Source: a virus. Taken from it: 21,513 bases of DNA. Below, piece after piece: positions 4,882-21,513 of this stretch. The number at the start of each line of letters is the position of its first letter. Position 1 is the first letter of the stretch. The notes beneath the pieces are model-generated. The model saw nothing but the letters and a program-made list of their open reading frames with translations, did no database searches and was not told the DNA's origin. The translations under genes and the position numbers were made by a program. The DNA lies in the IMG/VR virus record IMGVR_UViG_3300048110_000034, positions 1 to 21,513 of that record, one strand, 5' to 3'.

Positions 4882-5032
4882 CTTTTGTTTTTGTTATTTT
4901 TTCTATTAAATTATTTAAACCTGCTTCTTCATAAGCATAAGCCAATTCTTCTTGTGTAGCTGTTGCCCAAGAAATACTAAAATCTCCTTTGTAAGTAGAA
5001 CCAGAAGATAATTTTGCTTTGTATGTTGCCAT
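4820..5032 (-). CDS. Small Lys/Ser-rich protein, 70 aa, overlapping portal start
   Basis: The preferred start is the ATG at 5032 ('MATYKAKLSSGSTYKG') with an A-rich leader; the upstream in-frame ATG at 5089 falls inside the inverted repeat and would give an unlikely N-terminus. The first half is β-like ('YKGDFSISWATATQEELAYAYEE'), the second helical and ending in a Lys/Ser/Glu run ('KTSKKKSSKKADSTKE'). Its last 62 nt overlap the first codons of the portal gene in another frame. I do not recognise a family. It is placed between tube and portal, where a head or neck accessory protein would be expected; function is not shown. Confidence 0.6.
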   Translation of the reverse strand: MATYKAKLSSGSTYKGDFSISWATATQEELAYAYEEAGLNNLIEKITKTKDESEKTSKKKSSKKADSTKE

Positions 5033-5050
5033 AATTGTATAAATTTTTAA

Positions 5051-5087
5051 GTGTGATAAATCTACAATTTTTTTGTTGCAATCACAC
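5051..5087 (-). repeat. Inverted repeat upstream of the 70-aa gene
   Basis: GTGTGAT (minus strand 5081-5087) and ATCACAC (5051-5057) form a 7-bp perfect stem with a long A-rich loop that may fold further (ACAA with TTGT). No clean T-tract follows. It lies 18 nt before the ATG at 5032, so a leader structure, an operator, or a second weak terminator are possible. Confidence 0.4.
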
Positions 5088-5093
5088 ATATTT

Positions 5094-5140
5094 AAAAAAG
5101 ATATTAATAGGATTTACAAAACCTCAGTTTCTACCTATTA
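5094..5140 (-). terminator. Hairpin terminator after the tube-like gene
   Basis: On the minus strand TAATAGG (5134-5140) pairs with CCTATTA (5105-5111) over 7 bp. An inner AAAC/GTTT stem (5127-5130 with 5119-5122) closes a TGAG loop. The stem is followed by ATATC and six T residues (5094-5099). It starts 16 nt after the stop at 5156, and is a credible Rho-independent terminator. Confidence 0.55.
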
Positions 5141-5155
5141 TGTATCTAATTATTA

Positions 5156-5737
5156 TTAAGCTGCAGTAGTTGCAGTTAAAGCTGCTGTATCAACAGTAAT
5201 TGCACCAATATATTTTCTTGGTAACTCAAACTGTCTTGCCATTAAGTTAACTGTTATACCACTTTCATCAGAATAAGCTGCTCCAGTTCCACCTTCCATA
5301 CTTGCTAAATTCAAGAATGTTTGACTTTTTGAAGCTACATCTTCGTTTGCATATTTTTCACTAACACCTAAAACCATTGCTGTACCATTAGTATCAATAG
5401 CAATTCCCATCATACAAGTATCTAATAATGCTTGTAATTCTGCAAATTTTGTATTGTCTAATTTTGGTAGCATAAATGATAAACCACATTCAAAAGCTGT
5501 TGAGCCATTTTCTTTAGTTGCATTTATAGTCATTGCAGGAGTTTCATTTTTAAATTCAAAAACAAACCAAGCTGCTGCACTAGAACCAGTAAGAATACTG
5601 TCAATGTCATGCTCACCTGCTGCATTACCATAAACTACTGCATCTGTAGGCGCCCATGATCTTAGAAGAATTTGCTTAATACCACCTGTTGCTTGTAAAT
5701 CTGCACAAGTAACACCTAAACCTTTATCTATTGCCAT
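5156..5737 (-). CDS. Putative major tail tube protein
   Basis: This 193-aa Ala/Thr-rich protein ('MAIDKGLGVTCADLQATGGIKQ') has the β-dominated plan of tube proteins: a first sheet ('WFVFEFKNETPAMTINATK'), a helix ('TKFAELQALLDTCMMG') and a second sheet ending 'GTGAAYSDESGITVNLMARQ'. The region 'SKSQTFLNLASMEGGTG' fits the inner sheet-forming segment. Being the next gene after the capsid and having its own terminators upstream and downstream suggest a highly expressed virion protein. Tube versus head decoration protein cannot be settled from sequence alone; tube is preferred because of the helix between two sheets. The start has the AATAATATGGCA context shared with three other structural genes. 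Confidence 0.55.
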   Translation of the reverse strand: MAIDKGLGVTCADLQATGGIKQILLRSWAPTDAVVYGNAAGEHDIDSILTGSSAAAWFVFEFKNETPAMTINATKENGSTAFECGLSFMLPKLDNTKFAELQALLDTCMMGIAIDTNGTAMVLGVSEKYANEDVASKSQTFLNLASMEGGTGAAYSDESGITVNLMARQFELPRKYIGAITVDTAALTATTAA

Positions 5738-5760
5738 ATTATTTTTTTTTATAAATTATT

Positions 5761-5796
5761 AAAAAGTAAATAAGAGAGAGCTTTTACACTCTCTCT
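5761..5796 (-). terminator. Hairpin terminator after the capsid gene
   Basis: On the minus strand AGAGAGAG (5789-5796) pairs perfectly over 8 bp with CTCTCTCT (5773-5780) around an 8-nt loop, 13 nt after the capsid stop. A T-rich tract (TATTTACTTTTT, 5761-5772) follows. This is the shape of a Rho-independent terminator, though the T-tract is broken by AC. Confidence 0.6.
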
Positions 5797-5809
5797 ATCT
5801 ACATTGTTG

Positions 5810-6856
5810 TTATACAATTACTCCCCATTGTACTAGAGAGTCGTATAAGTATTGTACACCTAACTTGAAGTAACCTCTAAAGTACATTTTTTCTTCTAAA
5901 TCATCATAGAATACTTTAAATGAACCTTCTGGGTCTGTAACATCTGAACCAATAATTAGGTTTTCAGTAGCTACATAACAAGCTCCGTTATTGTATTGAG
6001 TTGCACTACCACCTGATGGTGTGTGAGTAAACATTGCAGGGTTAAGGTCAGCTAAAATAGTATCCCACTCGTACATTGGAATTACTTGAACACCTCTAAA
6101 GCTAACTCTAGTGTAACCTTCAACTGTGTTTACAATAGCTAAATCTGCAGAAGAACCTTCTAAGTTTGCTAAGTAAGCATTAAAGACTTTTGGAGTTACA
6201 AAGAACTTCTTATCAGAAGAAGCTACTTGTTGTAAAGCTGCAGGAGCTGTGTCATACATATTTCTAAGTAGACCAATTGCATCTGCTGCTGTTGGAGCTG
6301 CTTCTACACCTGCATATATAGTTCTAGCTGCTAATATACCTGAAGTTGCCATTAATTTCATCCATCCATCAAATGCTTTGTAACCAGAATTTGCTGCAGC
6401 AGTAGTATCACCACCCCAACCTAATCTTACTACATCTTGTCCAATACCTTTAACTGCACGATTTACAATTGCATCAGCTAATTGAGTACCTTCTAGATTC
6501 ATTACATCTACACCACTTTTGTACATTTCTTCAATGTAAGTTCCAAAGAACTCATCAGTACATTGCTCTAAAGCTACTCTACATCTTCCTGCAGTAATTA
6601 CTTTATCATCAATATTAAAATCTACTTGACCAGAACCATCACCACTATTACTTGAAGAAGAACAAGCAGTATAAGGTCTTACTATTTTTGTTAGAGCAGC
6701 AGAAGTGTATACATTCATTTTATGCTTAACATTAGGGATAACTCTGTAGTTTTGCATTAAATCATCACTTCTAAATACTGGCTCATAAAAGATTTCGTTT
6801 AAGTTAGCACCACTATAAGTTGCTGCTATACTATTATTTGCTACGTTTGTTGCCAT
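5810..6856 (-). CDS. Major capsid protein (HK97-type, by context)
   Basis: This 348-aa protein follows the prohead protease by 20 nt, the usual place for the capsid gene. It starts 'MATNVANNSIAATYSGANLNEIFYE', has the mixed α/β pattern of HK97-fold capsids ('VDVMNLEGTQLADAIVNRAV' as a spine-type helix, then 'GWMKLMATSG') and ends with β-strands ('FKVFYDDLEEKMYFRGYFKLG'). A stretch near the Ser/Gly-rich 'SSSSNSGDGSGQ' may be a flexible loop. It forms the icosahedral shell. No cleavable delta domain is obvious, but the scaffold seems to be carried by the protease gene. A hairpin with an 8-bp stem stands shortly after the stop and probably ends or thins transcription. Confidence 0.88.
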   Translation of the reverse strand: MATNVANNSIAATYSGANLNEIFYEPVFRSDDLMQNYRVIPNVKHKMNVYTSAALTKIVRPYTACSSSSNSGDGSGQVDFNIDDKVITAGRCRVALEQCTDEFFGTYIEEMYKSGVDVMNLEGTQLADAIVNRAVKGIGQDVVRLGWGGDTTAAANSGYKAFDGWMKLMATSGILAARTIYAGVEAAPTAADAIGLLRNMYDTAPAALQQVASSDKKFFVTPKVFNAYLANLEGSSADLAIVNTVEGYTRVSFRGVQVIPMYEWDTILADLNPAMFTHTPSGGSATQYNNGACYVATENLIIGSDVTDPEGSFKVFYDDLEEKMYFRGYFKLGVQYLYDSLVQWGVIV

Positions 6857-6876
6857 TTTTATTTATTTTTTGATTA

Positions 6877-7281
6877 TTAATTATTAAATTTTGCTCTTAC
6901 TCTATCTGCCATTGCATTATAAAAACTTGCATTAGCATCAACAGTTTTATTTTCAACTACAGCAGGGTCGCCTTCAGTAACTACTTCAGTACCTTTAGCA
7001 TCTGCTTTGTTCAATAAAGCATTTAATCTTTCTATTTCAGTAGAAAGAGTTTCATTTTCTCCTTTAGTAGAAGTTAATTCTTCTTCTAAAGAAACAATTT
7101 TTCCATTTAAGTCAGTTACACTTGCTTCAAAAGAAGATAATTTGTTTGATATTTCTTCATTATCTGAAAGCATAACATTAACCTCAGTTACAACATCTTC
7201 TGACTTGTTGTCAGCTCCTTTTACAGAGTTTACAATTTCATCAACTTTGTTGTTAAACCAATTTTTTAACTCTTCAGTCAT
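6877..7281 (-). other. Possible nested scaffold product from internal ATG
   Basis: The internal ATG at 7279-7281 (residue 210 of the protease) follows the A-rich leader AATAACAAAAAA, similar to true starts in this window, and would give a 134-aa protein with the coiled-coil scaffold part only. Nested scaffold starts of this kind are known for the phage lambda C/Nu3 pair. There is no experimental support here, so it is proposed only. Confidence 0.35.
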
Positions 7282-7908
7282 TTTTTTGTTATTTACGTTA
7301 ATATTTAATTTATTATGTATTTGTTCAGTAGTAATGTTTTTGAATTTAGAAACATCATACTTAGCTGCTACTTTAATAGAATCAGAAATAAGATCAATAA
7401 AACCTAACTCATATGCTTCTTGAGCATTTAGCCAAGTTTCTTTATCCATCATTTCAATAATTCTATTTAACGACAATCTTGTTTTTCTCTCGTAAATATT
7501 AGCAATTTCACCACTAATCTTTTCTAAGATAGATGCAGTCTTTCTCATATCTTCAGCTTCACCCATTGCACCACCCCAAGCATTGTGTATCATAAAAAGA
7601 GAATTTTCAGCCATGATAACTTCATCAGCAGCTAATGCGATAACACTACCCATACTTGCAGCTATACCCTCAATATAAGCAGTAGTTTTTGCTTCTCTCT
7701 TTTTTATTATATTGTACATCGCCATCCCATCAAATACATCACCACCAATACAGTTGATTCGTAAATTAACAGGAGTATCTTTGTACTCTTTCATCTCAGA
7801 AATAAAGTCTTGTGCAGTAATACCATAAGCACCAATTTCATCAAAGATGTAAACCTCTGCAACAGCATCTGTTGCTTTTCCTTGTATACTAAACCATTTC
7901 TTATTCAT
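6877..7908 (-). CDS. ClpP-type prohead protease with C-terminal scaffold region
   Basis: This 343-aa protein begins with an S14 (ClpP-like) serine protease domain. The catalytic triad is visible as S85 ('EGIAASMGSVI'), H108 ('FMIHNAWGG') and D155 ('MDKETWLNAQEAYELGFID'). The oxyanion segment 'INCIGGDVFDGMAMYN' is at 51-66. The protease would cleave scaffold and capsid delta regions during head maturation. Residues about 210-343 are Glu/Lys/Ser-rich and coiled-coil-like ('SSFEASVTDLNGKIVSLEE'), typical of scaffolds fused to proteases; the end 'FYNAMADRVRAKFNN' may bind the capsid. An internal ATG at residue 210 (7279-7281), preceded by an A-rich leader, could also start a free scaffold protein. 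It directly precedes the capsid gene, the usual order. Confidence 0.92.
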   Translation of the reverse strand: MNKKWFSIQGKATDAVAEVYIFDEIGAYGITAQDFISEMKEYKDTPVNLRINCIGGDVFDGMAMYNIIKKREAKTTAYIEGIAASMGSVIALAADEVIMAENSLFMIHNAWGGAMGEAEDMRKTASILEKISGEIANIYERKTRLSLNRIIEMMDKETWLNAQEAYELGFIDLISDSIKVAAKYDVSKFKNITTEQIHNKLNINVNNKKMTEELKNWFNNKVDEIVNSVKGADNKSEDVVTEVNVMLSDNEEISNKLSSFEASVTDLNGKIVSLEEELTSTKGENETLSTEIERLNALLNKADAKGTEVVTEGDPAVVENKTVDANASFYNAMADRVRAKFNN

Positions 7909-7965
7909 ACCTGCAAAATTAGAATCTAATTGATACTTTATCTACCTAATTTGTGGAAAAAACTT

Positions 7966-8289
7966 TTAGTAAGAGATATTCTCAGATGCTTTTGATTTTT
8001 TTCTGTATTTATACACTATATTTTGTGCTTGACTTTCACTTATCTTGTATTTATGTGATAAGTCCATAAAGGTATGTGTTCTATTGCCTTTATTAAAAAC
8101 TAATCTTCTGTCAAAGTCTGCTATAATCATATAGTTCCTTAGTCGTTTAGGTTCTACCATACCCCTCTCTACCAAGTGTTTTAAAATATCTTTAGGTGTG
8201 GCAGTTTCACCGAACCTTTTAGAAATTTCAATATCTAACAACTCTAAGTAATCAAAAACTACATCTACTTTATTTTGTCTTTTTGACAT
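7966..8289 (-). CDS. Small HTH-like protein, possible DNA-binding regulator
   Basis: This 107-aa basic protein has a plausible helix-turn-helix near residues 72-98: 'TFMDLSHKYKISESQAQNIV' followed by 'YKYRKK', where the 'L-x-x-K/R-Y-x-I/V-S' turn fits regulators of the Mor or sigma-70 region 4 type. The N-terminal part ('KVDVVFDYLELLDIEISKRFG' and 'TPKDILKHLVERGMV') is helical and might mediate dimerisation. It overlaps the preceding 93-aa gene by 20 nt and lies upstream of the prohead protease, so it is transcribed between tail and head modules. A regulator of late genes, or a DNA-binding packaging accessory, are the two readings. No operator was recognised. Confidence 0.55.
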   Translation of the reverse strand: MSKRQNKVDVVFDYLELLDIEISKRFGETATPKDILKHLVERGMVEPKRLRNYMIIADFDRRLVFNKGNRTHTFMDLSHKYKISESQAQNIVYKYRKKSKASENISY

Positions 8290-8551
8290 TCTTTTTTTTC
8301 TTAGTGTTTTCTTTTAACCACTCTTCACACATTGTATTCCAGAACTTTACAACAGCATTTCTACAGGATGAACAATTTATATCTTGTTTTTGTGCAGGAA
8401 AATATTTATGCCACAAACTATACATATTATTTAAACTATCTACTTTGTGTCTGCTAAAATTAGCATTGTAAATTCTGTTTTCTTCAACAGATTTTTTTAT
8501 AAGCTCTCTGTCTGCCTTAATGACAGATTTAGCTATTTCTTGTAAATTCAT
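8270..8551 (-). CDS. Hypothetical protein, 93 aa, with CxxC
   Basis: The protein has an α-helical N-terminal half ('NLQEIAKSVIKADRELIKKSV'), a conserved-looking middle 'SLNNMYSLWHKYFPAQKQDINCSSC' around residues 39-63, an aromatic helix 'VVKFWNTMCEEWLKE', and a Lys-rich end ('TKKKKNVKKTK'). Three Cys (C60, C63, C75) could bind a metal together with a His, but no known ligand set is clear. It overlaps the following HTH-like gene by 20 nt. The short spacing within the three-gene block suggests co-expression with the zinc-ribbon-like and HTH-like proteins. I do not recognise a named family. Confidence 0.6.
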   Translation of the reverse strand: MNLQEIAKSVIKADRELIKKSVEENRIYNANFSRHKVDSLNNMYSLWHKYFPAQKQDINCSSCRNAVVKFWNTMCEEWLKENTKKKKNVKKTK

Positions 8552-8564
8552 ATTGTTATTTTAA

Positions 8565-8759
8565 TTACCATTTGCCTTCTGGACACTTACCATACCAGTC
8601 TGCAGAGAGAGATGTCTTTGCATCTAGGAAACAAGTGCATTTAGCACATCTTGATCCCCAATTTATTACTGGTTTTTTAAGCATCAAAAAATTTCTGTAA
8701 AAAGTACATTTTTTACAGATAGATAATCTTTCTAACTTTGTTTTTTTATTAACAAACAT
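8565..8759 (-). CDS. Cys-rich small protein, zinc-ribbon-like, 64 aa
   Basis: The protein has six Cys: C15 and C18 (CKKC), C38 and C41 (CAKC, continuing to C43) and C59 in 'YGKCPEGKW'. Two CxxC pairs about 20 residues apart, then a C-P-x-G-K-W ending, form a pattern I have seen in small phage proteins and interpret as a zinc ribbon; metal binding is inferred. It lies 10 nt after the tape measure and 13 nt before the next gene, opening a block of three small genes between the tail and head modules. Its role could be nucleic acid binding or virion assembly; sequence alone does not decide. Confidence 0.65.
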   Translation of the reverse strand: MFVNKKTKLERLSICKKCTFYRNFLMLKKPVINWGSRCAKCTCFLDAKTSLSADWYGKCPEGKW

Positions 8760-8769
8760 TTGTTTAATT

Positions 8770-11277
8770 TTAAAATGTTGCTTCAGCTTCTATAACTGAA
8801 ACAGTATTCTGTGCAGTAGAAATATCTGATTCTACTACAACTACTCTTCCTCCTTGTCCTATTGCACCCATCATACCTGCTTGACTGGTTGCATTAAATT
8901 GTGATTGTGCAAATGATGGCATATTCATTAAACCACCATCAGCAAACTTCACTCCACCACCTGCTGCGTTCATTGCAGATAATTGATTTCTAAACATAGA
9001 TGTACTACGTTTATTTATAACTGCTTCACCACCTTCTAATTCTACTACTCTACCACCTACTGCAAACTTCTCACCACCTTGTGCATGAGATTTACCATGT
9101 ACCATACCACCATTTGCAAATGTATCAATTACACCACCATCACCAAAACTTTTTATTATTTTTGAAAGTACAGCTAATGTAGCTAGTACAGCTATAATGT
9201 TAAGAGGAAAAGGAAGTTTAGTTTGACTTGCAGCTCCAGAAGCTACCTTTGGTGCAATACTGGCAGTTTCAACAACAGTATTAGCTGTGGTGGCTACAGT
9301 ATTAGCACCAGTAGCAACAGTTTCAGCAGTTGTAGCTGCTGTGTTTGCAACCTTTGCTTTTGTACCTAATAATGTGGCTAAAGTTAATTTACCTTTAGTT
9401 ATTTCGCTAAGTATTTCTTGTATTCTTAAAACAGATTCTGCTGCTGCTGCAGCTTGTGTAATTGCTACCCCAACTTCTCTTACTTTATTTAATTTTTCAT
9501 TTTCACCTGCAAGTTGTACTAGAGCATCTCCTAAATCATCTATATCATCTATTTGTTCTTTTCTTAATTTATTTTCTTTTTTAGCAGTAGTTTCTATCCT
9601 GTCTAATTCATTATCTAAAATTTGAGCATTAATTTCGGCAGTATTTTTACCATATCTTTCATACAATCCTAGCATATTTGCAAGATGCAATTGTTCTTTT
9701 GTAAATGATTTTTCATCAAACTCTTCTTTAGTGTCTAAACCATTTTTATATCTTTCTTTTAATTTAGAAATTTCTTCTATATGATGATTTTCTAATTGTT
9801 TCTGTTCTTTTTGAAATCTTTTTTGTTTTTCTTGTTCTTCTTCATCAGCAATTTGTTTTTTGGTTTTTTTGCCAATATTTAATTGTGATGCTAATGCTTC
9901 TGCTGATAATTCTAATTGCTTTTGTATTGATTTATTAAGATCATCAGTTACATCTCCCAACTTTTCTGCACTATCAGCAGCAAACAAATATTGCATTGCT
10001 GCTTCTCCCAACAATACAGCAACAAGACCTATACCTGTTCTTGCTAAAGCTCCTTTAGTTATTTTTAAGCTACCATTTAATAAAGCTACTGCTCCTCTCC
10101 ATGCAATAGTTGCTTTTGTAGCAGCAAAAACTCCAATCCTGTATAAACCTATCCATTTTACTAAATCTATTGTTACAGAAATTGCAGTACTAACAGTTTT
10201 AGAGTTTTCTGTCAAAAGGTTAATAAAATCAGTAATTCTTTTAACAACTCTTCTTAAACTGTTACCTAATTTACTAACTAAAACAATAGCTAATCCCTGA
10301 CTAGCAGAAGTTAATCGCTTCATATCACCTTCAAAAGTATCTCCAATAATATCTGCCATTCTTTTTGCACTACCACCTGCTGCCATATAAGCATTTGTAG
10401 AATCTTCTATGGTCTGTACCCCTTTTAACATTGTTCTAAATATAGCTTGTTGCCTAACATCTACTATCTCTCCAATTCTTTCGTTATCTAATTGTGCATC
10501 ATTTAATTTATGTAATGCTATTATTAAATCATCAGCACTATGAACAGTAAAACCAATTTGTTGTGCAAGATCAGATGTTGGGTTCATCATTTTTAAGAAT
10601 ATGTTTCTTAAAGATGTACCTGCAATAGATGCTTCATGTCCTGCATCAGCTAAAACTCCCATAATTGCTGCTGTTGCTTCTATACTAATATTTGCACTTG
10701 CTGCGATTGGAGCAACTTTAGTCATAGATGTTTGCCATTTTTCAATATCTAAAGGAGAAGAAGCAAATGCTGCTGTCATTACATCCACAACTCTTGTAGT
10801 TTCTGAAACATCTAAACCAAAACCTTTAACTGCAGCACCTGCTACAATTGCAGCTCTACCTAAATCAGAATCAGTAGCAACAGCTAAATTTAAAGTCGCT
10901 TCTTGTGCATCTAATATTTGTTGAGTAGTAAAACCTAATTTACCATAATTTGTTTGTAGCTCTGCTACTTGTTGTGCAGTAAAAAAAGTGCTTCTACCTA
11001 ATTTTTGTGCAGATAAATCTAATTTTTTAAATTCTGCATCACTTGCATTAGTTACAGCTTTAGTTTTAGCCATTTGAAATTCAAAATCTCTAAATGTTCT
11101 AATACCTGAACTAATAACTTTGTTTATTTGTCTAAAAGCTGCAGCAGCACCTAGTATACCAGCAGTTAATTTATTAAAACCTAGTGTCGTTGTTTTAGTT
11201 TTCTTTTCTAAATTATCTAGCTGCCCCTGTCCTTTTACAACTACCTGAACTATTATTTTTTCTGTATCTGTTGCCAT
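8770..11277 (-). CDS. Tail tape measure protein, TP901 family
   Basis: This 835-aa protein contains the hallmark TP901-type core at about residues 65-320, seen as 'FEFQMAKTKAVTNASDAEF', 'VAELQTNYGKLGFTTQQIL', 'IVAGAAVKGFGLDVSETT', 'KVAPIAASANISIEATAA' and 'AGHEASIAGTSLRNIFLKM'. Hydrophobic helices follow (about 360-435), then a charged coiled-coil region (about 465-600), an Ala/Thr/Val repeat near 640-676 ('ETVATGANTVATTANTV'), a short hydrophobic segment and a Gly-rich end with 'GGVIDTFANGGMVHG'. Tape measure length sets tail length; at about 1.5 Å per residue this one predicts a tail near 125 nm, so a long-tailed morphology. It starts with the AATAATATGGCA context and shows no lysozyme or peptidase insertion. 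Confidence 0.93.
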   Translation of the reverse strand: MATDTEKIIVQVVVKGQGQLDNLEKKTKTTTLGFNKLTAGILGAAAAFRQINKVISSGIRTFRDFEFQMAKTKAVTNASDAEFKKLDLSAQKLGRSTFFTAQQVAELQTNYGKLGFTTQQILDAQEATLNLAVATDSDLGRAAIVAGAAVKGFGLDVSETTRVVDVMTAAFASSPLDIEKWQTSMTKVAPIAASANISIEATAAIMGVLADAGHEASIAGTSLRNIFLKMMNPTSDLAQQIGFTVHSADDLIIALHKLNDAQLDNERIGEIVDVRQQAIFRTMLKGVQTIEDSTNAYMAAGGSAKRMADIIGDTFEGDMKRLTSASQGLAIVLVSKLGNSLRRVVKRITDFINLLTENSKTVSTAISVTIDLVKWIGLYRIGVFAATKATIAWRGAVALLNGSLKITKGALARTGIGLVAVLLGEAAMQYLFAADSAEKLGDVTDDLNKSIQKQLELSAEALASQLNIGKKTKKQIADEEEQEKQKRFQKEQKQLENHHIEEISKLKERYKNGLDTKEEFDEKSFTKEQLHLANMLGLYERYGKNTAEINAQILDNELDRIETTAKKENKLRKEQIDDIDDLGDALVQLAGENEKLNKVREVGVAITQAAAAAESVLRIQEILSEITKGKLTLATLLGTKAKVANTAATTAETVATGANTVATTANTVVETASIAPKVASGAASQTKLPFPLNIIAVLATLAVLSKIIKSFGDGGVIDTFANGGMVHGKSHAQGGEKFAVGGRVVELEGGEAVINKRSTSMFRNQLSAMNAAGGGVKFADGGLMNMPSFAQSQFNATSQAGMMGAIGQGGRVVVVESDISTAQNTVSVIEAEATF

Positions 11278-11289
11278 ATTATTATTTTT

Positions 11290-11823
11290 TTATCCTAAAT
11301 TTTGTACAGTTGCATTTGGTATATATTTTTGTATATTGTCTTTAACCATTTGAACAGCATCTTGTTTAATACCTGTTATAATTTCGTGTTTAATTGTTTT
11401 TTTAAGTTTTCTCACAGTATATCCTGCAAAGTCTGTTCTTCTTAAATTATTTCCTTCTGTCCAATAAACATATGGTCTGCCATAAAAACCTCTTCTATTA
11501 GTTTTTTCACTACCCATTAATTTATTATATATAGCATAAGCAGCTTTAGGTATTCCTTTTTTCGCTGCCCATCTTATTATATCACTTTTACTAGCATTAA
11601 AAGACCATTTGCTTGGGTTATTTACTACTTGCCAATATTTTTTGTTGTTTGTAGAAATAACATTAAGTATTTGATTTTTACCTGCATTTGTTTTTATTGC
11701 TTTAATACTTCTGCTTAAATTACCTGTAGCATTATGTTTTTGAAAAGCTAATTCTGCTCGTAAACCTTTAACGATTATTTTACCTACTTTAGTTAATCTT
11801 TTATTTGTGTTTTTTAATCTCAT
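11290..11823 (-). CDS. Minor tail / head-tail joining protein, HK97 gp10-like
   Basis: This 177-aa, strongly basic protein begins 'MRLKNTNKRLTKVGKIIVKGLRAEL'. The arrangement 'NATGNLSRSIKAI', then a β-rich part ('QILNVISTNNKKYWQVVNN'), then 'RRGFYGRPYVYWTEGNN' and a C-terminal amphipathic helix ('AVQMVKDNIQKYI') follows the plan of HK97 gp10-type proteins. In that plan, 'T/S-G-x-L-x-x-S' precedes a β-sheet and a helix that packs on the tail or neck. These proteins act in tail completion or head-tail joining. The gene is coupled to the 59-aa gene by TAATG and precedes the tape measure by 12 nt. Family assignment is by pattern and position, so it is moderate. Confidence 0.55.
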   Translation of the reverse strand: MRLKNTNKRLTKVGKIIVKGLRAELAFQKHNATGNLSRSIKAIKTNAGKNQILNVISTNNKKYWQVVNNPSKWSFNASKSDIIRWAAKKGIPKAAYAIYNKLMGSEKTNRRGFYGRPYVYWTEGNNLRRTDFAGYTVRKLKKTIKHEIITGIKQDAVQMVKDNIQKYIPNATVQNLG

Positions 11824-12004: not shown

Positions 12005-14701
12005 TTAAAATTCATAAATATTAAAAGATGTTGGACTGTTTGACCAACTACCATCATTAGAGTTTACAGTTGGTATAGATGCAGCAAAATCACCTAAAAG
12101 AGGAAACTCTATAAGCTCTACTTTTGTTGTAGAATTAGATTGTGGCATATAATCTGAAATTTTGTTTATTCTCCAATACACACCATCTAAATAAATTAAC
12201 TTTCTAAAATCTAAATTAGCTATATCACTAATCTTTAAATTAAGATTTGCTACTCTTACTCTTGGATTGTATTTATACATCTCAATCATTTGCTTGTAAT
12301 ACGTTTCGTATAAACCCTTACCATACTCATATGCACTATAAGTATCATTAACATCATCAAAATCTCTTACATATACGTTACCATATGTTAAAATAGGACT
12401 TGTACTGTCATCTCTATTTACAGATGTTGCTTGTGGGTATCTATCAGATAATACATTAGCACCTGTTAAACCTAAATTTGCTGCTATAGTTTCTGTTTTA
12501 CCTGTCCATAACTGTGCTGTTGCAATTTTACCAGTATCAAAATTTAATCCACTTGCAGTATAGTTTTTCCAATATAAAAGTCTAGGTAAAAATTCAAAAC
12601 CTTTGTCTGGTCTAGCATAATCATTTGGCGATATAAAACCTTTCTCATCTTTTTCTTGCCACAAACACGATATGTATGGTGGTGTAGATGAAGAGCCACT
12701 ATCTAAATCTTTTGCATTAAAAGTACCTGCAAAGAAAGGATTTTCAAAAGTAGATGTACCTCTTTCAAACTCATCAGATAGAGTTTCAAAATATGGGTAC
12801 TCATCTTCTATTTCTTTAAAATAATCTATACTTCTTTGTCTAACCTTTTCATCTTTACTATCTGTTTTGTATTTAAAAACTAAATCTCTTTTTATATCTA
12901 CATTTAACCATTTATCTTGTATTTCTTGACCAATATCTAATTTATCTGTCCAATCTATAGCTTCATATAATGGCTTATAAAAAGTATCAAATGGTTCTAT
13001 GTAAATAGTTTTTGATGCTTCATCAGAAGTAAATTGTAAATTAAAAGCATGAGCAACTCCTTTAATAAAATCTATTTGTTTATAGTCTTTATTAATAATG
13101 TTTTTTAAATCAAATGTTTGTCCATATTGTGTAAAATCTGGTTGTAATCCTATATCATAAATACCATCTCTTGCAGCTATATTAGTGTTTCTTTGTGCAA
13201 ACAATTGATAAGTAGCAGTTATAGTATTTGTAAAATTAGATTTATTTGGGAAAGCCAATACTTTTAAATGTAATCTAACTTGATCTCCTTTGTTTAAGTA
13301 TTGTGTTATTTCAAATGGTTCTATTTCTGCAGTATAATCTACAGCAGGTGTTTGTGTGTTTCCTGCAGGTAAAGCTAAATCTACTGCACCTTCTGCGTAA
13401 CCTAAATCTTGCCAATGTGTTTCACCAACTGTAAGTTTTTGTACTTGTACTCTAACATATTTGTAAACTATATCAAAATTATTACCAAAAGATGTTGTAT
13501 ACCCATTAGAAATGTCTTTAATATTTATACACCAATTTTCTAATTGTATGTCATATCTGCCATACTCTGGTGCATACCATATATCTTGTGAAGTATTATA
13601 TGAACTACCACCATTTAACTGAAAGTTTATACCATTAGCACTACCTGCAGTTGTTGTATTTGGATATATAACCTCATCAAAAACTAATGCTTCAGCACTA
13701 TTTGTAAAAGATGTGCTTTTAGCACTACCATTATTATTAAAAACTCTTGCAGAATCTGTGCCACGATTATTATTAAATCTAATTTGCAAAGAATTAGCAT
13801 CATATCGTGTGTCAGGATTGTTATATTTAAAATTAGGTAAAGCAAATAGTAATCTCTTAAACATATCTGTTTCTACAAAGTTTGACACTAATGTATATTC
13901 TGATTGTAAAAATATTTCTTTAAATACGTCGTATACCCATAAACATGGTCGCCAATCTACTACAGGATCAGGAGTACCATAGTCAAAACCTAAATAATTT
14001 GTTCCAACATAACCAACCTTATTATTAGACTGTCCTAAATATTCTTTGGCAGTTTCAAGCAATTGTATGGTTCTGCCTATACCTGATGGATTGAAATCAC
14101 CATAAGAAGTTATAGGGTAAACTAATGGTATGTCATTAGCTGTATTGTTTTGGTTTTTATAAATAGCACTATCTTGCACCCAAGTAGATGTTATGCCTGT
14201 TTTGTTTATTACTAAATCTTGACCAGTACCTGCACCTTTTAAATTATCCCAAGCATCACCATTTGTTCCTAAATCTTTAAGTAGCTTTTCACCTATAGCA
14301 GTTGCCCAACCAACATTATCTCCATAAAATACACAAGAATAAAATTGTGGTTTATCACTCAAACCAACTGATTTAAGCTGTAGTAAACCAGTAATAGAAT
14401 ACAAATTATTAATTAATATTCTACAAGGTTTTTTACTTGATAAATTATTTGTGCTTGTAGAGTTTACAATATATACACTCTTATATAATTGATTGTTGTT
14501 TTTTGTTGCAGGTATTTTAAAAGTCTTACTAAAGCTACCTTTACGAGCATTTATATCTCTAATGTCTGAAATTGAAAAAGTTAAAGAAAGTGGAAACTCA
14601 GAATGTGTAGAAACTTCTAGCTCACCAACAACACTCTTATCCCAGTCTATACTAGAACCATCATATACATAATCTAATAACTCTATTGTAATATTACTCA
14701 T
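12005..14701 (-). CDS. Large tail protein, 898 aa (tail hub/baseplate candidate)
   Basis: This is the longest protein in the window. Its N-terminus ('MSNITIELLDYVYDG', then 'FSISDIRDINARKGSFSKTF' at about 40-60) looks like the start of a tail hub type protein: a β-rich domain, then a conserved-looking Lys/Ser/Phe stretch. The remainder is Asn-, Tyr- and Asp-rich, with 'YRRINKISDY'-like strands near the end ('YLDGVYWRINKISDYMPQSNS'). It lacks membrane segments and a signal peptide. It is coupled to the 568-aa gene by TAATG and followed 2 nt after its stop by the ATG of the 59-aa gene. Hub proteins join the tail tube to fibres; here that is an inference from size, place upstream of the tape measure and composition. 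No catalytic motif was seen. Confidence 0.7.
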   Translation of the reverse strand: MSNITIELLDYVYDGSSIDWDKSVVGELEVSTHSEFPLSLTFSISDIRDINARKGSFSKTFKIPATKNNNQLYKSVYIVNSTSTNNLSSKKPCRILINNLYSITGLLQLKSVGLSDKPQFYSCVFYGDNVGWATAIGEKLLKDLGTNGDAWDNLKGAGTGQDLVINKTGITSTWVQDSAIYKNQNNTANDIPLVYPITSYGDFNPSGIGRTIQLLETAKEYLGQSNNKVGYVGTNYLGFDYGTPDPVVDWRPCLWVYDVFKEIFLQSEYTLVSNFVETDMFKRLLFALPNFKYNNPDTRYDANSLQIRFNNNRGTDSARVFNNNGSAKSTSFTNSAEALVFDEVIYPNTTTAGSANGINFQLNGGSSYNTSQDIWYAPEYGRYDIQLENWCINIKDISNGYTTSFGNNFDIVYKYVRVQVQKLTVGETHWQDLGYAEGAVDLALPAGNTQTPAVDYTAEIEPFEITQYLNKGDQVRLHLKVLAFPNKSNFTNTITATYQLFAQRNTNIAARDGIYDIGLQPDFTQYGQTFDLKNIINKDYKQIDFIKGVAHAFNLQFTSDEASKTIYIEPFDTFYKPLYEAIDWTDKLDIGQEIQDKWLNVDIKRDLVFKYKTDSKDEKVRQRSIDYFKEIEDEYPYFETLSDEFERGTSTFENPFFAGTFNAKDLDSGSSSTPPYISCLWQEKDEKGFISPNDYARPDKGFEFLPRLLYWKNYTASGLNFDTGKIATAQLWTGKTETIAANLGLTGANVLSDRYPQATSVNRDDSTSPILTYGNVYVRDFDDVNDTYSAYEYGKGLYETYYKQMIEMYKYNPRVRVANLNLKISDIANLDFRKLIYLDGVYWRINKISDYMPQSNSTTKVELIEFPLLGDFAASIPTVNSNDGSWSNSPTSFNIYEF

Positions 14702-16407
14702 TAGTTTCTTTGTGTTTGTACTTTATGCGATAGTGTATATTCTATATTAAACTTTACTAAACCTACTTCTTGATTAACAGTTTCAACATCACTATTTGTT
14801 ATAATGACTGGTATGTATTCTTTTGTAGAAGGTCTTTGGTAAGGGTTAATGCTATTACCTCTTGCAGTAGCATCTGTATCCATTTCTATCCATACATTTG
14901 GCGAAGTCATAATTTCTTGTAACCATTTAGCTGTGTTTTTATTTAATGGCTCTGTATATACACTATTGTTTTTTTGAGCATTTACATTTAATACTTCTCT
15001 ACCACCCTTGTATAAATTACCACCTCTCATAGTATTAGATATGTATTCTGCATCTGGTATTGTTGCACCTAAACCATCAACACTATTTTGATACCAAGTT
15101 CTGTCAGCACTTTTTGTTTCTATAGTATCTCTGTTTATAGATATACTTTCTAGAACACTTCTTTTAGCTGTATAGCTGTCTATACCACCCATTCTATTTA
15201 GCCAATGAAATCTTACAAAATCATAAGGCAGTTTTTCATCTTCTCTATCTATCTTGTACCATCTATATTCTGACATTAATTGTGGAGTAGTAGCAACCCT
15301 GTCAAAAAACAAACTAATTGTATATGTATCTGTAGATGCAGTAATTTTATTGCCAGAATATGATGTACCATCAGCTTGTTTAGCATTATTATTTAAATAA
15401 TCTATTGATACATTTTGAACACACATTTTATTTTGGTCAATGTAATATTGGCTTATACTTGAATTATATTCTAAATTACTAGCAAAATCATCTACATAAA
15501 AAGTATTCCCATCTGATGTTTCTATTTTTAAATTTACTCTTTCCACATTAAAAGTACCTGCTTTTGCTTGTCTTATATAAAAATACAGCCATTCAGCAGT
15601 TTCATCAGTTCTAACAGATTTTACAAGTGTTGGTTTATTTGTATTGCTATTATTGTTGTTTGGACAGTAACTTAAAAAACCACCACTACCACTACCTACT
15701 AAAAACCTAGTAAATAAGAAAACTTCATCTTTTTCATACTGATGTACTGAATTTATAATAGTTATAGGTTTAAATGTAACTTTATTTGTAGCTTCAACTA
15801 CTAAACCAGTATCTAAAAGAATTTCAGGTCTTGCAACTACCTTAATATATCTATATGATCCATTTGGTGTAACATTAAATAAACTTACACTTTGTGTTAC
15901 ATTATCTTGTTTAGTTTGCCCACCATTCATACCACCCCATTGTGAATTTTGCCAAGTTCCTTTGTTTATTGGCACTAAGCTATATGATAATAAGTCTTGA
16001 CATACTTGACTAATGTCTACAGTAAACCTTTGATTAGATAAAATAGCATTGCTATTGTATTGCTTATTAGCTACATCTCTTGATTTTTTTATAGTAGCTA
16101 CTAAGTCCCAATTGTTTAAGTTTGGTGGATAGCCACTAGGGTTTTCATATCTTGTACTTGCATAAACATAAAAAACCATATTAATTATATCACCTGTACT
16201 AGAAGTTCCATTTAACTTTGTTGGTACATATGCTTCGTTAATAGTAACCCCATTATAACCTGTTCCTGCCCACCTTACTTGGTATCTTTTAGGCACATTA
16301 GCACTTGTTAAGTAATTTGTTCTATCAGTTCTACTTAAATCTTTTGCTGATTGTGTTAATGATACTGGTGCAAATGAATCATATATATTTCCATTTATTG
16401 TAGCCAT
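14701..16407 (-). CDS. Large tail protein, 568 aa (distal tail or baseplate candidate)
   Basis: The protein starts with 'MATINGNIYDSFAPVSLTQ' and is Asn/Ser/Thr/Tyr-rich, β-dominated and without membrane segments or a signal peptide, as usual for phage tail proteins. The middle contains repeated β-strand-like stretches ('YRYIKVVARPEILLDTG', 'EWLYFYIRQAKAGTF'), and the C-terminal third has 'YDFVRFHWLNRMGGIDSYTAKR' followed by a region ending 'VGLVKFNIEYTLSHKVQ', typical of structural all-β folds. It lies 2 nt before the previous gene's stop and its own stop overlaps the ATG of the 898-aa gene (TAATG at 14699-14703), so the pair is translationally coupled. A distal tail or receptor-binding part is inferred from position and composition; I do not recognise a named family with confidence. 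Confidence 0.7.
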   Translation of the reverse strand: MATINGNIYDSFAPVSLTQSAKDLSRTDRTNYLTSANVPKRYQVRWAGTGYNGVTINEAYVPTKLNGTSSTGDIINMVFYVYASTRYENPSGYPPNLNNWDLVATIKKSRDVANKQYNSNAILSNQRFTVDISQVCQDLLSYSLVPINKGTWQNSQWGGMNGGQTKQDNVTQSVSLFNVTPNGSYRYIKVVARPEILLDTGLVVEATNKVTFKPITIINSVHQYEKDEVFLFTRFLVGSGSGGFLSYCPNNNNSNTNKPTLVKSVRTDETAEWLYFYIRQAKAGTFNVERVNLKIETSDGNTFYVDDFASNLEYNSSISQYYIDQNKMCVQNVSIDYLNNNAKQADGTSYSGNKITASTDTYTISLFFDRVATTPQLMSEYRWYKIDREDEKLPYDFVRFHWLNRMGGIDSYTAKRSVLESISINRDTIETKSADRTWYQNSVDGLGATIPDAEYISNTMRGGNLYKGGREVLNVNAQKNNSVYTEPLNKNTAKWLQEIMTSPNVWIEMDTDATARGNSINPYQRPSTKEYIPVIITNSDVETVNQEVGLVKFNIEYTLSHKVQTQRN

Positions 16408-16409
16408 AA

Positions 16410-17558
16410 TTAATATATTTTGTATTTAGTATTTAAGTAAGATTTTACATTAGCAATTTCAGTATCGGATAAAACAGAATTGTAAATAATTACTTCTTGT
16501 AGATTACCTTTTAAATAGTTTGTAGCTGCTGCACCAATTTTGTAACCTATCGTGTAGTCTGCATTATTAAAAGTATGTGAATTGTCATAACCACTTTCTT
16601 GTACAGAATTGCTTAGTGTATTGTTATATTCTAAATATAATCTCTTGTTATGAAGTTTAGCCATTGCAATATGATAATTACCTGTTGCAGCACTTGTTAA
16701 AGACAGCTCAGCACCATCACCACTTGCATCAGCAAATTTACCAGTAAACAAGCCATTCTTACTTCCAAACTCTAAAATAGAGCTGCCATCTATATAACTA
16801 AAGTATTTACCCTCATAACCTGAACTTAATGTATTTTGTGCTACAAAAAACATTGTAAATGTACTGGCAATAGGACTATCGCCATTTGAAACAAAATAAT
16901 TAGATGTGCCATTAAATTCTATTCTAGCTTTATCATTAGCACCATCATAACCATATCTTAGTGCTTGTTTAGATTTTGTAGCTTGTGCTACACTATTTGT
17001 ATTGCCTGATTGATCTGCCCAAGCAGAAATCTTTTTAGTAGGTATGTCAAATGTCAATCCACTATCTGCTCTTAGCCATGTTACTAAGTTAGCAATGTCA
17101 GAAGGGTATGTAGAGGTAGGTCTGAAACATTTAGAAAATGCACTCATAGTAAAGGTAAACTTAATCTGTACTAATCTATCGTTAGCCACTTCTTTTACTC
17201 TTTCTATCTCTACACTTTCATCATTTAGGTATACATCTACTACATTGTCCTGATAGTTCTTTAAAACCATGTCAAACCACTCCATAGCCAAATCTTGTAG
17301 GTTATCCCATCTATGTTGTAGTGTTACTGCAGACTGTGCTGCTTGTGGGTATAGGTTGTAAAAGTTTATTTCAAACTCATACTCTTCTCTACCAGAATAT
17401 ATCTCTGGCATAGTAGATAGTGGTGGGTTAATTAGTAACAGAGGGTATTGTGTGTTATGAGCTTCGTTTACTTCACCATCATAACCAAACTTACTATCAC
17501 CGAAAGTCCATTTGTTTTCAAATACTGTTACTATGTCTTTTAATCTTGTTATTGCCAT
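16410..17558 (-). CDS. Tail-terminator-like protein with C-terminal LamG domain
   Basis: This 382-aa protein appears to be a fusion. Residues 1-147 form a compact α/β unit ('TQYPLLLINPP', 'EYEFEINFYNLY', 'NDRLVQIKFTFTMSAFSKCF') with the size and pattern of tail terminator or completion proteins, which cap the tail tube. After a Pro/Ser/Thr linker (about 148-157), residues 158-382 are a LamG/concanavalin domain. Its marks are 'LVTWLRADSGL', 'ISAWADQSGN', 'IEFNGTSNYF', 'YHIAMAKLHNKRLYLEYNN' and the closing 'GNLQEVIIYNSVLSDTEI'. LamG modules on virions are thought to bind host-surface glycans; that is family knowledge, not shown here. The start ATG sits at one end of an (AT)7 run (17557-17570). 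The terminator assignment is tentative; the LamG call is firm. Confidence 0.75.
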   Translation of the reverse strand: MAITRLKDIVTVFENKWTFGDSKFGYDGEVNEAHNTQYPLLLINPPLSTMPEIYSGREEYEFEINFYNLYPQAAQSAVTLQHRWDNLQDLAMEWFDMVLKNYQDNVVDVYLNDESVEIERVKEVANDRLVQIKFTFTMSAFSKCFRPTSTYPSDIANLVTWLRADSGLTFDIPTKKISAWADQSGNTNSVAQATKSKQALRYGYDGANDKARIEFNGTSNYFVSNGDSPIASTFTMFFVAQNTLSSGYEGKYFSYIDGSSILEFGSKNGLFTGKFADASGDGAELSLTSAATGNYHIAMAKLHNKRLYLEYNNTLSNSVQESGYDNSHTFNNADYTIGYKIGAAATNYLKGNLQEVIIYNSVLSDTEIANVKSYLNTKYKIY

Positions 17559-17569
17559 ATATATATATA

Positions 17570-17905
17570 TTACATTACTTTATTTGGGTTGTGAATCTTA
17601 TCATTTACTGCTATCTCGTAATCATTCTTCGCTGTATTCCAACTCAAATATGTTAAAACTTTATATAGATTAGTATTCTTTACACTATCTACATCATTCA
17701 TTCCCTCTACTCTAAAAATACCTTTCTCTGCAACCATATATAAGCTATTTAGCCAACCATATGGTTTTATGAACTTGGTATAGAGTCCAACTGTAGAAAC
17801 TCTTCCTTTGCCTGTTCCAATTCTTCCCCTTCCTTCCCCAAAAACATTTGGAAAGTCCTTGTTAATTTTACGCTTTGCATAGTCAAAAAAAAACTGAACT
17901 CCCAA
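17570..17905 (-). CDS. -1 frame extension of the chaperone gene (GT-like frameshift product)
   Basis: This frame overlaps the 230-aa gene by 139 nt and has no ATG in the overlap. Its apparent start at 17905 is a TTG, the first ATG lies well inside it, and TAA stops close the frame just upstream of 17905. It therefore seems to be reached by a -1 shift at the T9 run. The fusion would be 191 residues of the first frame plus 105 from this one, 296 in total, continuing 'SFF|FDYAKRKINKDF'. The extension is basic and Gly-rich at first ('GEGRGRIGTGKGRV'), then hydrophobic and aromatic ('FIKPYGWLNSLYMV'). It ends 12 nt before the ATG of the next tail gene. A homopolymer sequencing error (true T10) would make it one ordinary gene instead. 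Confidence 0.6.
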   Translation of the reverse strand: MGVQFFFDYAKRKINKDFPNVFGEGRGRIGTGKGRVSTVGLYTKFIKPYGWLNSLYMVAEKGIFRVEGMNDVDSVKNTNLYKVLTYLSWNTAKNDYEIAVNDKIHNPNKVM

Positions 17906-18459
17906 ACGATGTCCATAGTCAATTGCTTAAACTTATCACTTTTTGAGGATATAATATCATCATCGTATTCTTCATCTATTCTTCTGCATAATATCGCCAT
18001 TTGTTCTGGTAAAACATCAAATTTACCATGCTTCATCATTTGTATAGTAGCATCTAATTGTGTAGATTCTATGTAATCTCCAAAAGTGTTTCTTTTTAGA
18101 AATTCCTTTGGAAAAAAGTACACATCATCATCAAATTCAAATCTATCTATACCTTGAGGTTTATATTCTTCCATCATTTGTCCTATAGTTCCAACAGCAG
18201 TATTTACACTTTCTAAATCTAATTGATTTAGCATAGCATCGTTTATACCAGTAACATACTTAAATATTTCTCTGTTCATTCGTAAAACCTTAACCTCATC
18301 TAACTTTGGCTCTACAACTTCTTGTTTTTCTTCTTCTTCTTCAGCAGTTTCAGTATACTTTTTTATAATATTATATAGTCCACACCAATACTCAAGTGTA
18401 ATATCTTTCCACTCTGTTGGTATATCGTATTTTTCTTCTTTGATTTGAATTTCTATCAT
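17767..18459 (-). CDS. Putative tail assembly chaperone (gpG-like, 0-frame product)
   Basis: This 230-aa acidic, mainly helical protein begins four bases before the end of the previous gene. It opens with 'KYDIPTEWKDITLEYWCGLYNIIKKY', has a low-complexity Glu run near residues 39-50, then a helical core ('LRMNREIFKYVTGINDAMLNQL'). Near its end a T9 run encodes F190-F191 (17885-17893) in the phase T TTT TTT, from which a -1 shift would enter the 17570-17905 frame. Long-tailed phages conserve exactly this arrangement: a chaperone gene (G) with a -1 frameshift extension (GT) near the start of the tail module, whose products help assemble tail tube and tape measure. I assign function on this architecture and position, not on residue similarity. 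The last 39 residues of the unshifted product are an acidic helix plus a short tail. Confidence 0.6.
   Translation of the reverse strand: MIEIQIKEEKYDIPTEWKDITLEYWCGLYNIIKKYTETAEEEEEKQEVVEPKLDEVKVLRMNREIFKYVTGINDAMLNQLDLESVNTAVGTIGQMMEEYKPQGIDRFEFDDDVYFFPKEFLKRNTFGDYIESTQLDATIQMMKHGKFDVLPEQMAILCRRIDEEYDDDIISSKSDKFKQLTMDIVWEFSFFLTMQSVKLTRTFQMFLGKEGEELEQAKEEFLQLDSIPSS
17885..17893 (-). promoter_or_regulatory. Slippery site T9 for -1 recoding
   Basis: On the minus strand nine consecutive T residues follow AG and precede GAC. In the 0 frame the codons are AGT TTT TTT TTG, so T TTT TTT sits in the canonical X XXY YYZ phase. It lies inside the only window where a shift can work, between the last TAA stop of the -1 frame (about 40 nt upstream) and the 0-frame stop at 17767. 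A hairpin with arms 17835-17842 and 17847-17854 lies about 30 nt downstream, farther than usual for a stimulator. Polymerase slippage adding one U would give the same product. Confidence 0.55.
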
Positions 18460-21194: not shown

Positions 21195-21513
21195 TTATAT
21201 TGTTGTTAATGTTGCTAATTGAGTATCTGTTAATGCAGTCTTATATACTTGTAGTTGTTTTATTTTACCGTAAAACCCATTGCCAGTTGTAAAATCAAAT
21301 TCAAGTTTGTCCAAACCACTTAAAGAAATTGTATTAGTTCTTGTAACGATTTCTACTCCATTAAACCATAAAGCAATATCTCCTGATTTATATTTTAATG
21401 CAACTTTATTAAGTTGTAAAGCGTTAGTAATATTTGTAATTACAGAAACAGTACCTGATGGATTCAAAATATCAAAAGCAATTCTATTACCAAAATAATA
21501 TAAAATTACTGCA
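21195..21513 (-). CDS. LamG-like domain protein, C-terminal part (5' end outside window)
   Basis: The reading frame stays open to the right edge of the window, so only the last ~105 residues are visible. The TTG at 21467 is probably not the true start, because in-frame codons continue upstream (…YYFGNRIAFDI). The fragment has the alternating β-strand pattern of a concanavalin/LamG jelly roll: a strand with 'ALWFNGVEI', then 'GFYGKIKQLQVYKTALT' and the typical closing 'LTDTQLATL'. LamG modules on phage proteins usually sit on fibres or virion surfaces and may bind carbohydrate; that role is inferred here. A second LamG domain ends the protein at 16410-17558. The next gene starts 1 nt downstream, so the two are probably co-transcribed. 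The full domain layout cannot be known from this window. Confidence 0.6.
   Translation of the reverse strand, partial: AVILYYFGNRIAFDILNPSGTVSVITNITNALQLNKVALKYKSGDIALWFNGVEIVTRTNTISLSGLDKLEFDFTTGNGFYGKIKQLQVYKTALTDTQLATLTTI

Follow-up and report, generated by a model that had tools for sequence, protein, structure and literature searches.

Phage lambda ends its tail tube with a hexameric terminator, gpU, which also attaches the tube to the neck. As far as the available accounts go, the terminators of R4C, of a TP901-1 model and of RcGTA are also hexamers that end the tube and dock it to the neck. In phages 812, Milano and E217, all of which are contractile, the accessible descriptions have the terminator C-terminus pointing outward to the sheath. 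For the siphophage T5, the portion available gives the authors' suggestion that a tag added to the terminator's C-terminus may fold into the lumen (PMC11784142). In a separate line of work, the available part of one report describes lactococcal 936 phages with carbohydrate-binding modules (CBMs) on the neck passage structure (NPS), the major tail protein and an evolved Dit; when fused to GFP, one neck module and one tail-tube module attached to host cells, the neck module weakly (PMC6669499). For mycobacteriophage Douge, the excerpt available describes domains on the capsid, tube and tip that bound mycobacterial glycans on an array (PMC13033339). Glycan-binding domains on the neck, tail and capsid of other phages are therefore already known. 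In the literature searched (subscription papers lay outside it), we came across no lectin fused to the tail terminator itself; lectin or concanavalin-A-like domains in that literature are, in the text available, carried by other proteins or by a carrier that is not a terminator.

The DNA stretch analysed here (the window) is a 21.5-kb (21,513-nt) IMG/VR virus record that carries no completeness estimate. A single open frame encoding 382 aa fills positions 16410-17558 exactly on the minus strand, and its product joins a predicted tail-terminator domain to a LamG domain across a gap of about eight residues (Table 1). In order of transcription on the minus strand, this terminator-LamG gene is preceded by the cut gene for a LamG protein, a 120-aa ORF, a terminase small-subunit-like ORF (assigned by inspection, upstream of the large subunit), the terminase large subunit, and ORFs of 137, 230 and 111 aa. 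It is followed by genes for proteins of 568 and 898 aa, an HK97 gp10-like protein, the tape measure, a protease, a capsid-like protein, a possible tube protein (candidate at 5156-5737), the portal, a DUF6712 protein and an endolysin. The gene is thus placed between the terminase-side genes and the gp10-like and tape measure genes. The gene order over 3541-11277 on the minus strand is unusual, as the tape measure gene (assigned by inspection) is transcribed ahead of those for the protease, capsid-like, possible tube and portal proteins.

Table 1. Positions of the features discussed, in coordinates of the window.
Feature	Coordinates	Strand	Basis
Predicted tail-terminator domain, residues 1-147	17118..17558	-	AF2, Foldseek, VIA
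LamG / concanavalin-A-like domain, residues 156-382	16413..17093	-	AF2, VIA Z 20, Laminin_G_3, PHROG 10356
Hypervariable, exchanged LamG core, residues 231-358	16485..16868	-	Conservation profile, trees, AU test, codon-aligned mosaic
Overlapping upstream ORFs: 230 aa (17767-18459) and 111 aa (17570-17905)	17570..18459	-	ORF calls; tail-assembly-chaperone-like by inspection
568-aa neighbour, probable tail protein, variable middle at about residues 221-380	14701..16407	-	Conservation, trees
898-aa neighbour, probable tail protein, variable segment at about residues 301-520	12005..14701	-	Conservation, trees
HK97 gp10-like neck/tail-completion protein	11290..11823	-	PF04883, E 0.0076, 17.6 bits, below the cut-off of 21.4
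Tape measure protein, 835 aa	8770..11277	-	Assigned by inspection: length, content, place
C-terminal end of second LamG protein, cut by the window end	21195..21513	-	Laminin_G_3, E 2.7e-5, 24.8 bits, below cut-off

The terminase is closest to that of Croceibacter phage P2559Y (44.6%), and from this likeness the host is probably a marine flavobacterium. The 230-aa and 111-aa ORFs are 83-98% and 86-99% identical, respectively, in nine of nine close relatives and have no family match in Pfam, PHROG or NCBIfam. Read in a different frame from the 230-aa ORF, the conserved 111-aa ORF overlaps the latter's 3′ end, with its listed TTG start inside the longer ORF; by inspection, it may be a tail-assembly chaperone product of frameshifting. 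Among the downstream neighbours, the 568-aa protein gave no phage tblastn match at E<=0.01, and the 898-aa protein shows N-terminal similarity to Nonlabens phages P12024S/L and a match to PHROG 38559. Promoter-like sites in the window are fewer than in shuffled sequence (18 versus 22.7), and the terminator-like sites from the same site scan number 3 versus 1.2 expected, all 3 on the plus strand.

An earlier note on this sequence had likened the N-terminal part of the 382-aa protein to a tail terminator. Structure prediction bears this out. The AlphaFold model of residues 1-147, made from 55 diverse members (alignment Neff 2.2), has a pLDDT of 71, a pTM of 0.66 and zero residues at or above 90; a first model gave a pLDDT of about 50 for the domain. 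Its elements run in the order helix, strands, long helix and two long strands. When this model was searched with Foldseek, 46 of the 50 best PDB rows were neck, connector, tail-cap or tail entries, many of them named terminators; their sources were phages, an archaeal virus, tail-like bacteriocins or SaPI1. The remaining four were 2gjv (unknown function), 4acv (Listeria antigen B), 6i6o and 4fdk. VIA comparison gave Z 10-11.5 in the first 18 rows over 118-138 residues, including the NF5 neck protein (Z 11.5), the SaPI1 neck protein (11.4), lambda gpU (11.2, rmsd 3.4 Å over 125 residues), Mu (10.8) and T5 p142 (10.2), together with 2gjv (10.3) and 4acv (10.1). The best clearly unrelated row was a collagenase at Z 8.2.

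These results indicate, at moderate model confidence, that residues 1-147 adopt the gpU/gp17-type monomer fold of tail terminators, and we regard a terminator fold for this domain as highly probable. The predicted domain resembles lambda gpU, T5 p142, the Mu protein, the SaPI1 and NF5 neck proteins and cyanophage A-1(L) gp7 in fold and core-domain size, with VIA Z 10.1-11.5, rmsd 3.1-3.6 Å and Foldseek E values down to 2e-6 for the named terminators. The chains of these named terminators comprise 127-240 residues and none is described as lectin-bearing, whereas the window protein adds a LamG domain of about 230 residues.

Searches of a viral structure library (BFVD) with the N-domain returned a 398-aa protein of the same family as the top row (54% identity), followed by proteins of 152-196 aa with 17-26% identity, about the size of the domain alone. 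A lower row, R9ZXN6 of Cellulophaga phage phi12:1 (145 aa), has the same predicted fold. We equate this entry with phi12:1 gp53 on the basis of length and phage. The 145-aa gp53 gene lies between a gp10-like gene and a tail protein gene, which is the usual place of a terminator, and hhalign of the N-domain against the single gp53 sequence gave E 0.098. Terminator-like folds were also matched in long viral proteins of 393-1035 aa, among them one of 667 aa with collagen repeats, a 404-aa DUF1566 protein and others of 653-1035 aa; these may be other decorated terminators.

Sequence profiles and direct searches returned little for the N-domain. PHROG 78, 'tail terminator', matched 2 of the 55 members (best E 0.035). 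Pfam holds no family for the window's N-domain and gave chance-level matches only for other members (best E 0.023), and NCBIfam gave no match. A tblastn search with the N-domain against 50,697 phage records yielded no match at E<=1, and the N-domain of a homologue, L130, yielded two rows at E 7. In the PHROG scan of 20 window ORFs, none was named as a second terminator.

The earlier note had also placed a LamG domain in the C-terminal part, and the models agree on about residues 155-382. Pfam Laminin_G_3 matches residues 251-369 weakly (E 3.4e-4, 21.2 bits, below the 27.6 cut-off), and PHROG 10356, 'virion structural protein', spans residues 152-381 (E 8e-15). The mean AlphaFold pLDDT of ten-residue blocks is 86-97 over residues 221-380, except for 341-350 (69), and is low (42-69) over residues 161-210. 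In the VIA comparison of the whole-protein model, which covers the LamG part only, 671 of the 996 chains ranked highest by Foldseek reach Z of at least 8. The best match, domain 4 of the arabinanase AbnA (5ho2), has Z 20.0 over residues 155-376. AbnA with bound arabino-oligosaccharide (5hon, Z 19.4), the Pan3 cyanophage tailspike (Z 19.7) and clostridial binding domains follow, the whole set falling at Z 18-20. Like all of these, the C-terminal part is predicted to be a concanavalin-A-like jelly roll, and a LamG fold is, on the strength of this model, close to certain. Identities of 9-18% make the likeness one of fold, and the domain is a putative glycan binder.

Some other readings of the LamG part can be set aside. 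A toxin, as the clostridial rows might suggest, was rejected because the likeness is at the fold level and no other toxin part is present. A plain tail fibre was rejected on the N-domain fold in both Foldseek and VIA; as the earlier note proposed, the LamG is attached to a terminator-like protein and not to a fibre. The note had left open whether this protein sits at the neck or the tail tip. The matches of the N-domain to tail terminators would place the LamG at the head-tail junction rather than the tip. When solved structures were searched by sequence, the LamG part matched the PilC minor pilin (E 0.042 and 0.11). A LamG-based search of phage records returned 4 records at 23-26%; in the two inspected (Erythrobacter ZS04 and Rheinheimera Barba26A) the match lies in other large genes.

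The arrangement resembles that of the 936 phages in that a sugar-binding domain (here putative) is added to a structural tail or neck protein, beside the receptor-binding protein. However, the carriers in 936 phages, in the part of that report available, are NPS fibres, the tube protein and Dit, whereas here the carrier would be the terminator itself; similarly, the 936 modules are described there as BppA-type and other CBMs rather than LamG. An NPS-type neck collar or whisker is a separate fibre protein on the connector, whereas the LamG and terminator domains of the window are found in one polypeptide. No terminator is named among the Douge carriers in the excerpt available, and their domains have Ig-like and CBM folds, not LamG. 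The beta-sandwich of phage 812 gp99 and the C-terminal domain of PVC16 are, like the LamG of the window protein, extra domains on a terminator core (PMC12886913, PMC11784142); in the portions available, they belong to contractile systems and are ascribed to sheath contact or domain duplication, whereas the window protein carries a lectin fold. No sheath protein was recognised among the 20 window ORFs scanned.

Homologues were collected in five scans of IMG/VR viral contigs, three of which took the best 80 of 83, 145 and 147 confirmed loci. We read 137 ORFs and dropped second copies of a contig (L134 and L161) to leave 135 distinct loci. Among these listed matches, the LamG end, scored by a conserved C-terminal motif and ORF length, is present in 130 of the 135, three run off the contig within LamG, and two (L043 and L177, 153 and 205 aa) stop early through a natural break or an assembly error. 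This retention of the frame among the listed loci rules out a chance ORF. The 130 proteins comprise 113 of less than 450 aa, three of 525-531 aa and 14 of at least 600 aa; four loci (L010, L044, L066 and L180) are cut at the 5′ end. No relative with an intact C-terminus but without LamG occurs among the 135 loci listed, which indicates that, relative to the sampled family, the fusion is an old one. A scan of genome contigs gave 98 pattern matches, none of which was confirmed.

Some relatives carry more than one LamG. With the Pfam LamG model, two matches fall within the long terminator frame in 4 of 18 records (G009, G011, G013 and G018); one of the 18, the record of L070, has no Pfam LamG match, yet its protein matches PHROG 10356. 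Inspection of proteins revealed a second LamG nested inside the first in L068, L069, L071, L124, L125 and L132. Terminator-LamG proteins of about 640 aa with a nested second LamG were seen in L068, L071, L124, L171 and L184. When the nested LamG was searched against phage records, only two Synechococcus phages were found, with the match in an 851-aa gene.

The second LamG gene that the earlier note saw at the window end is likewise recognisable, at 21195-21512 on the minus strand, by a Pfam match that falls below the cut-off (Table 1). At the corresponding place, the near relatives G002 and G003 have frames of 1842 and 1764 aa, respectively, each containing three LamG matches that exceed the cut-off; both frames match PHROGs 8510 and 347, and one matches PHROG 5939. 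A piece of this giant upstream ORF found no match in phage records. PHROG 347 is itself named 'tail terminator' (connector), and the last quarter of its 394 positions (about 303-389) matches the nested LamG of L068, L124 and L187. No match links it to the protein of the window, and a search of 11 records did not recover its N-terminal part in any of them. From these matches, PHROG 347 is perhaps an independent terminator-LamG fusion, or else bears a carried-over label that possibly rests on few members; it hints at a similar fusion that may have been overlooked in existing databases.

Although the fusion is conserved, its LamG part varies. In nine close relatives the N-domain is 92-99% identical to that of the window (20-residue blocks average 0.91-1.00 identity), whereas the LamG part is 46-97% identical. 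Conservation drops between residues 221 and 360 and recovers at the C-terminus, such that the LamG ends (residues 148-230 and 359-382) are better conserved than the core. Pairwise comparison of 124 sequences (123 of the 135 loci and the window; core taken as residues 235-358) revealed 97 of 7626 pairs in which the cores are more alike than the N-domains, although for the most divergent cores the identity values vary with the alignment. For example, L124 and L184 share 49% of the N-domain and 85% of the core, and L038 and L042 share 98% and 18%, respectively.

Two lineages were then compared, picked after the pairwise comparison had already hinted at exchange: group A, comprising the window and L001-L009, and group B, for which 12 loci were taken from the clade around L129 (leaving out L167, which is close to L166; L161, a second copy; and L177, which is cut short). 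In quick trees with SH-aLRT support only, both groups are single clades for the N-domain, for the terminase large subunit (20 rows available) and for the 230-aa neighbour. In the tree of the LamG core (residues 231-358), 7 changes are needed for each group and the lineages are fully intermixed; shuffled labels give a mean of 7.5 changes, with 231-232 of 500 shuffles as low as observed. LamG residues 148-230 require 3 changes, and the 568- and 898-aa neighbours 1 or 2 depending on the segment. Forcing group A together on the core is 360 log units worse (AU p 1.7e-6). The variable segments of the 568- and 898-aa neighbours track the two lineages far better than does the LamG core.

The mosaic is visible in codon-aligned DNA. 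L005 and L163 are 55-78% identical over codons 21-140 and 83-88% over codons 161-340, whereas L005 and the window are 87-97% identical over codons 1-180 and 37-70% over codons 221-360, with edges near codons 160-220 and 340-360. Together, these alignments and trees show that the LamG core is exchanged as a cassette by recombination, independent of the N-domain, and the better conserved LamG ends are likely the recombination arms. A diversity-generating retroelement is an unlikely source of the variation: a search of 19 records, possibly including fragments, gave no reverse transcriptase (RVT_1), and LamG alleles with shared indels occur in distant lineages. The presence of whole alleles in different lineages favours recombination over such an element. 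The earlier note had counted it against its own reading if LamG occurred in all homologues as a single unit. This is so to the extent that no relative with an intact C-terminus among the 135 listed lacks LamG, but it does not hold for the core, which moves independently of the N-domain, and shorter proteins (152-196 aa, and 145 aa in phi12:1) share the predicted fold of the N-domain.

We propose that the gene encodes a tail terminator with a C-terminal LamG lectin, and on balance favour a neck collar of exchangeable lectins that serves in weak, reversible adsorption to glycans. Residues 1-147 would form a hexameric ring, cap the tail tube and dock it to the neck, and the six LamG domains would surround the neck on the outside. 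Six domains of about 230 residues are too big for a terminator channel (40 Å wide in phage 812), which argues for a collar around the neck. The outward terminator C-termini of phages 812, Milano and E217 also favour this placing, but those phages are contractile, and the possible location of the T5 tag in the lumen counts against a firm claim. We judge the outward collar to be likely. The collar would bind host-surface or capsule glycans weakly, with avidity, and thereby hold the virion near the cell until the tip meets its receptor, a role in host-glycan adsorption that we consider somewhat more probable than its absence. Replacement of the presumed sugar-contacting core through recombination between related phages, probably by way of the conserved LamG ends, would give different specificities on one fixed platform, and the variability of the core fits contact with variable host glycans. 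Host recognition may nevertheless rest mainly on the variable parts of the 568- and 898-aa proteins downstream.

Phage virions commonly bear Ig-like or lectin decorations that bind weakly, and a neck collar might be present without any part in host choice. It would then bind abundant matrix glycans (exopolysaccharide, particles or mucus-like material) and keep the phage near its hosts. Consistent with this, exchange of the LamG core is not paralleled in the downstream tail proteins, so that LamG alleles are not linked to particular types of tip. However, such diversification and swapping are more typical of host-driven selection than of generic retention, and we consider this explanation unlikely. 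Alternatively, LamG domains can be purely structural in role, and those of the window protein might brace the neck or anchor an appendage to the terminator, such as a whisker or the giant multi-LamG protein encoded upstream. In the part of the phage 812 report available, terminator decoration proteins are thought to reinforce the neck and stopper decorations contact putative whiskers (PMC12886913), and an anchoring face could lie at the LamG ends, which are better conserved. A brace would be expected to be conserved, yet no part of the protein varies more than the core, which makes this role quite improbable. Finally, the N-domain could be another ring protein of the same fold, for example near the tail tip, with LamG as an ordinary tip adhesin, as the moderate model confidence, the unusual gene order and the place of the gene just ahead of two large probable tail proteins with variable segments would allow, but the neck, tail-cap and tail entries that dominate the Foldseek rows, the agreement of VIA and the lack of another named terminator among the ORFs scanned with PHROGs make this very improbable.

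The lectin collar proposed here would bear on where host specificity is sought. Host recognition is usually looked for at the tail tip, whereas here a conserved part of the neck bears a putative lectin, and the greater shuffling of the LamG core between the two lineages than of the other segments tested points to selection on neck contacts. Phages that are alike over the terminase-to-neck genes and differ in one lectin core, such as L004 and the window, constitute a natural experiment. For annotation, lectin matches in terminator-like genes should not be recorded as tail fibres. More broadly, the predicted fusion indicates that a terminator can bear a large decoration. We advance only tentatively, and with some doubt, the wider idea that the terminator is a general platform for exchangeable adhesins in marine phages and its collar a second determinant of host specificity, one that recombines freely and separately from the tail-tip proteins. 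If this were true, the long terminator-like proteins of the viral structure library (the collagen-repeat, DUF1566 and other proteins) would be further cases.
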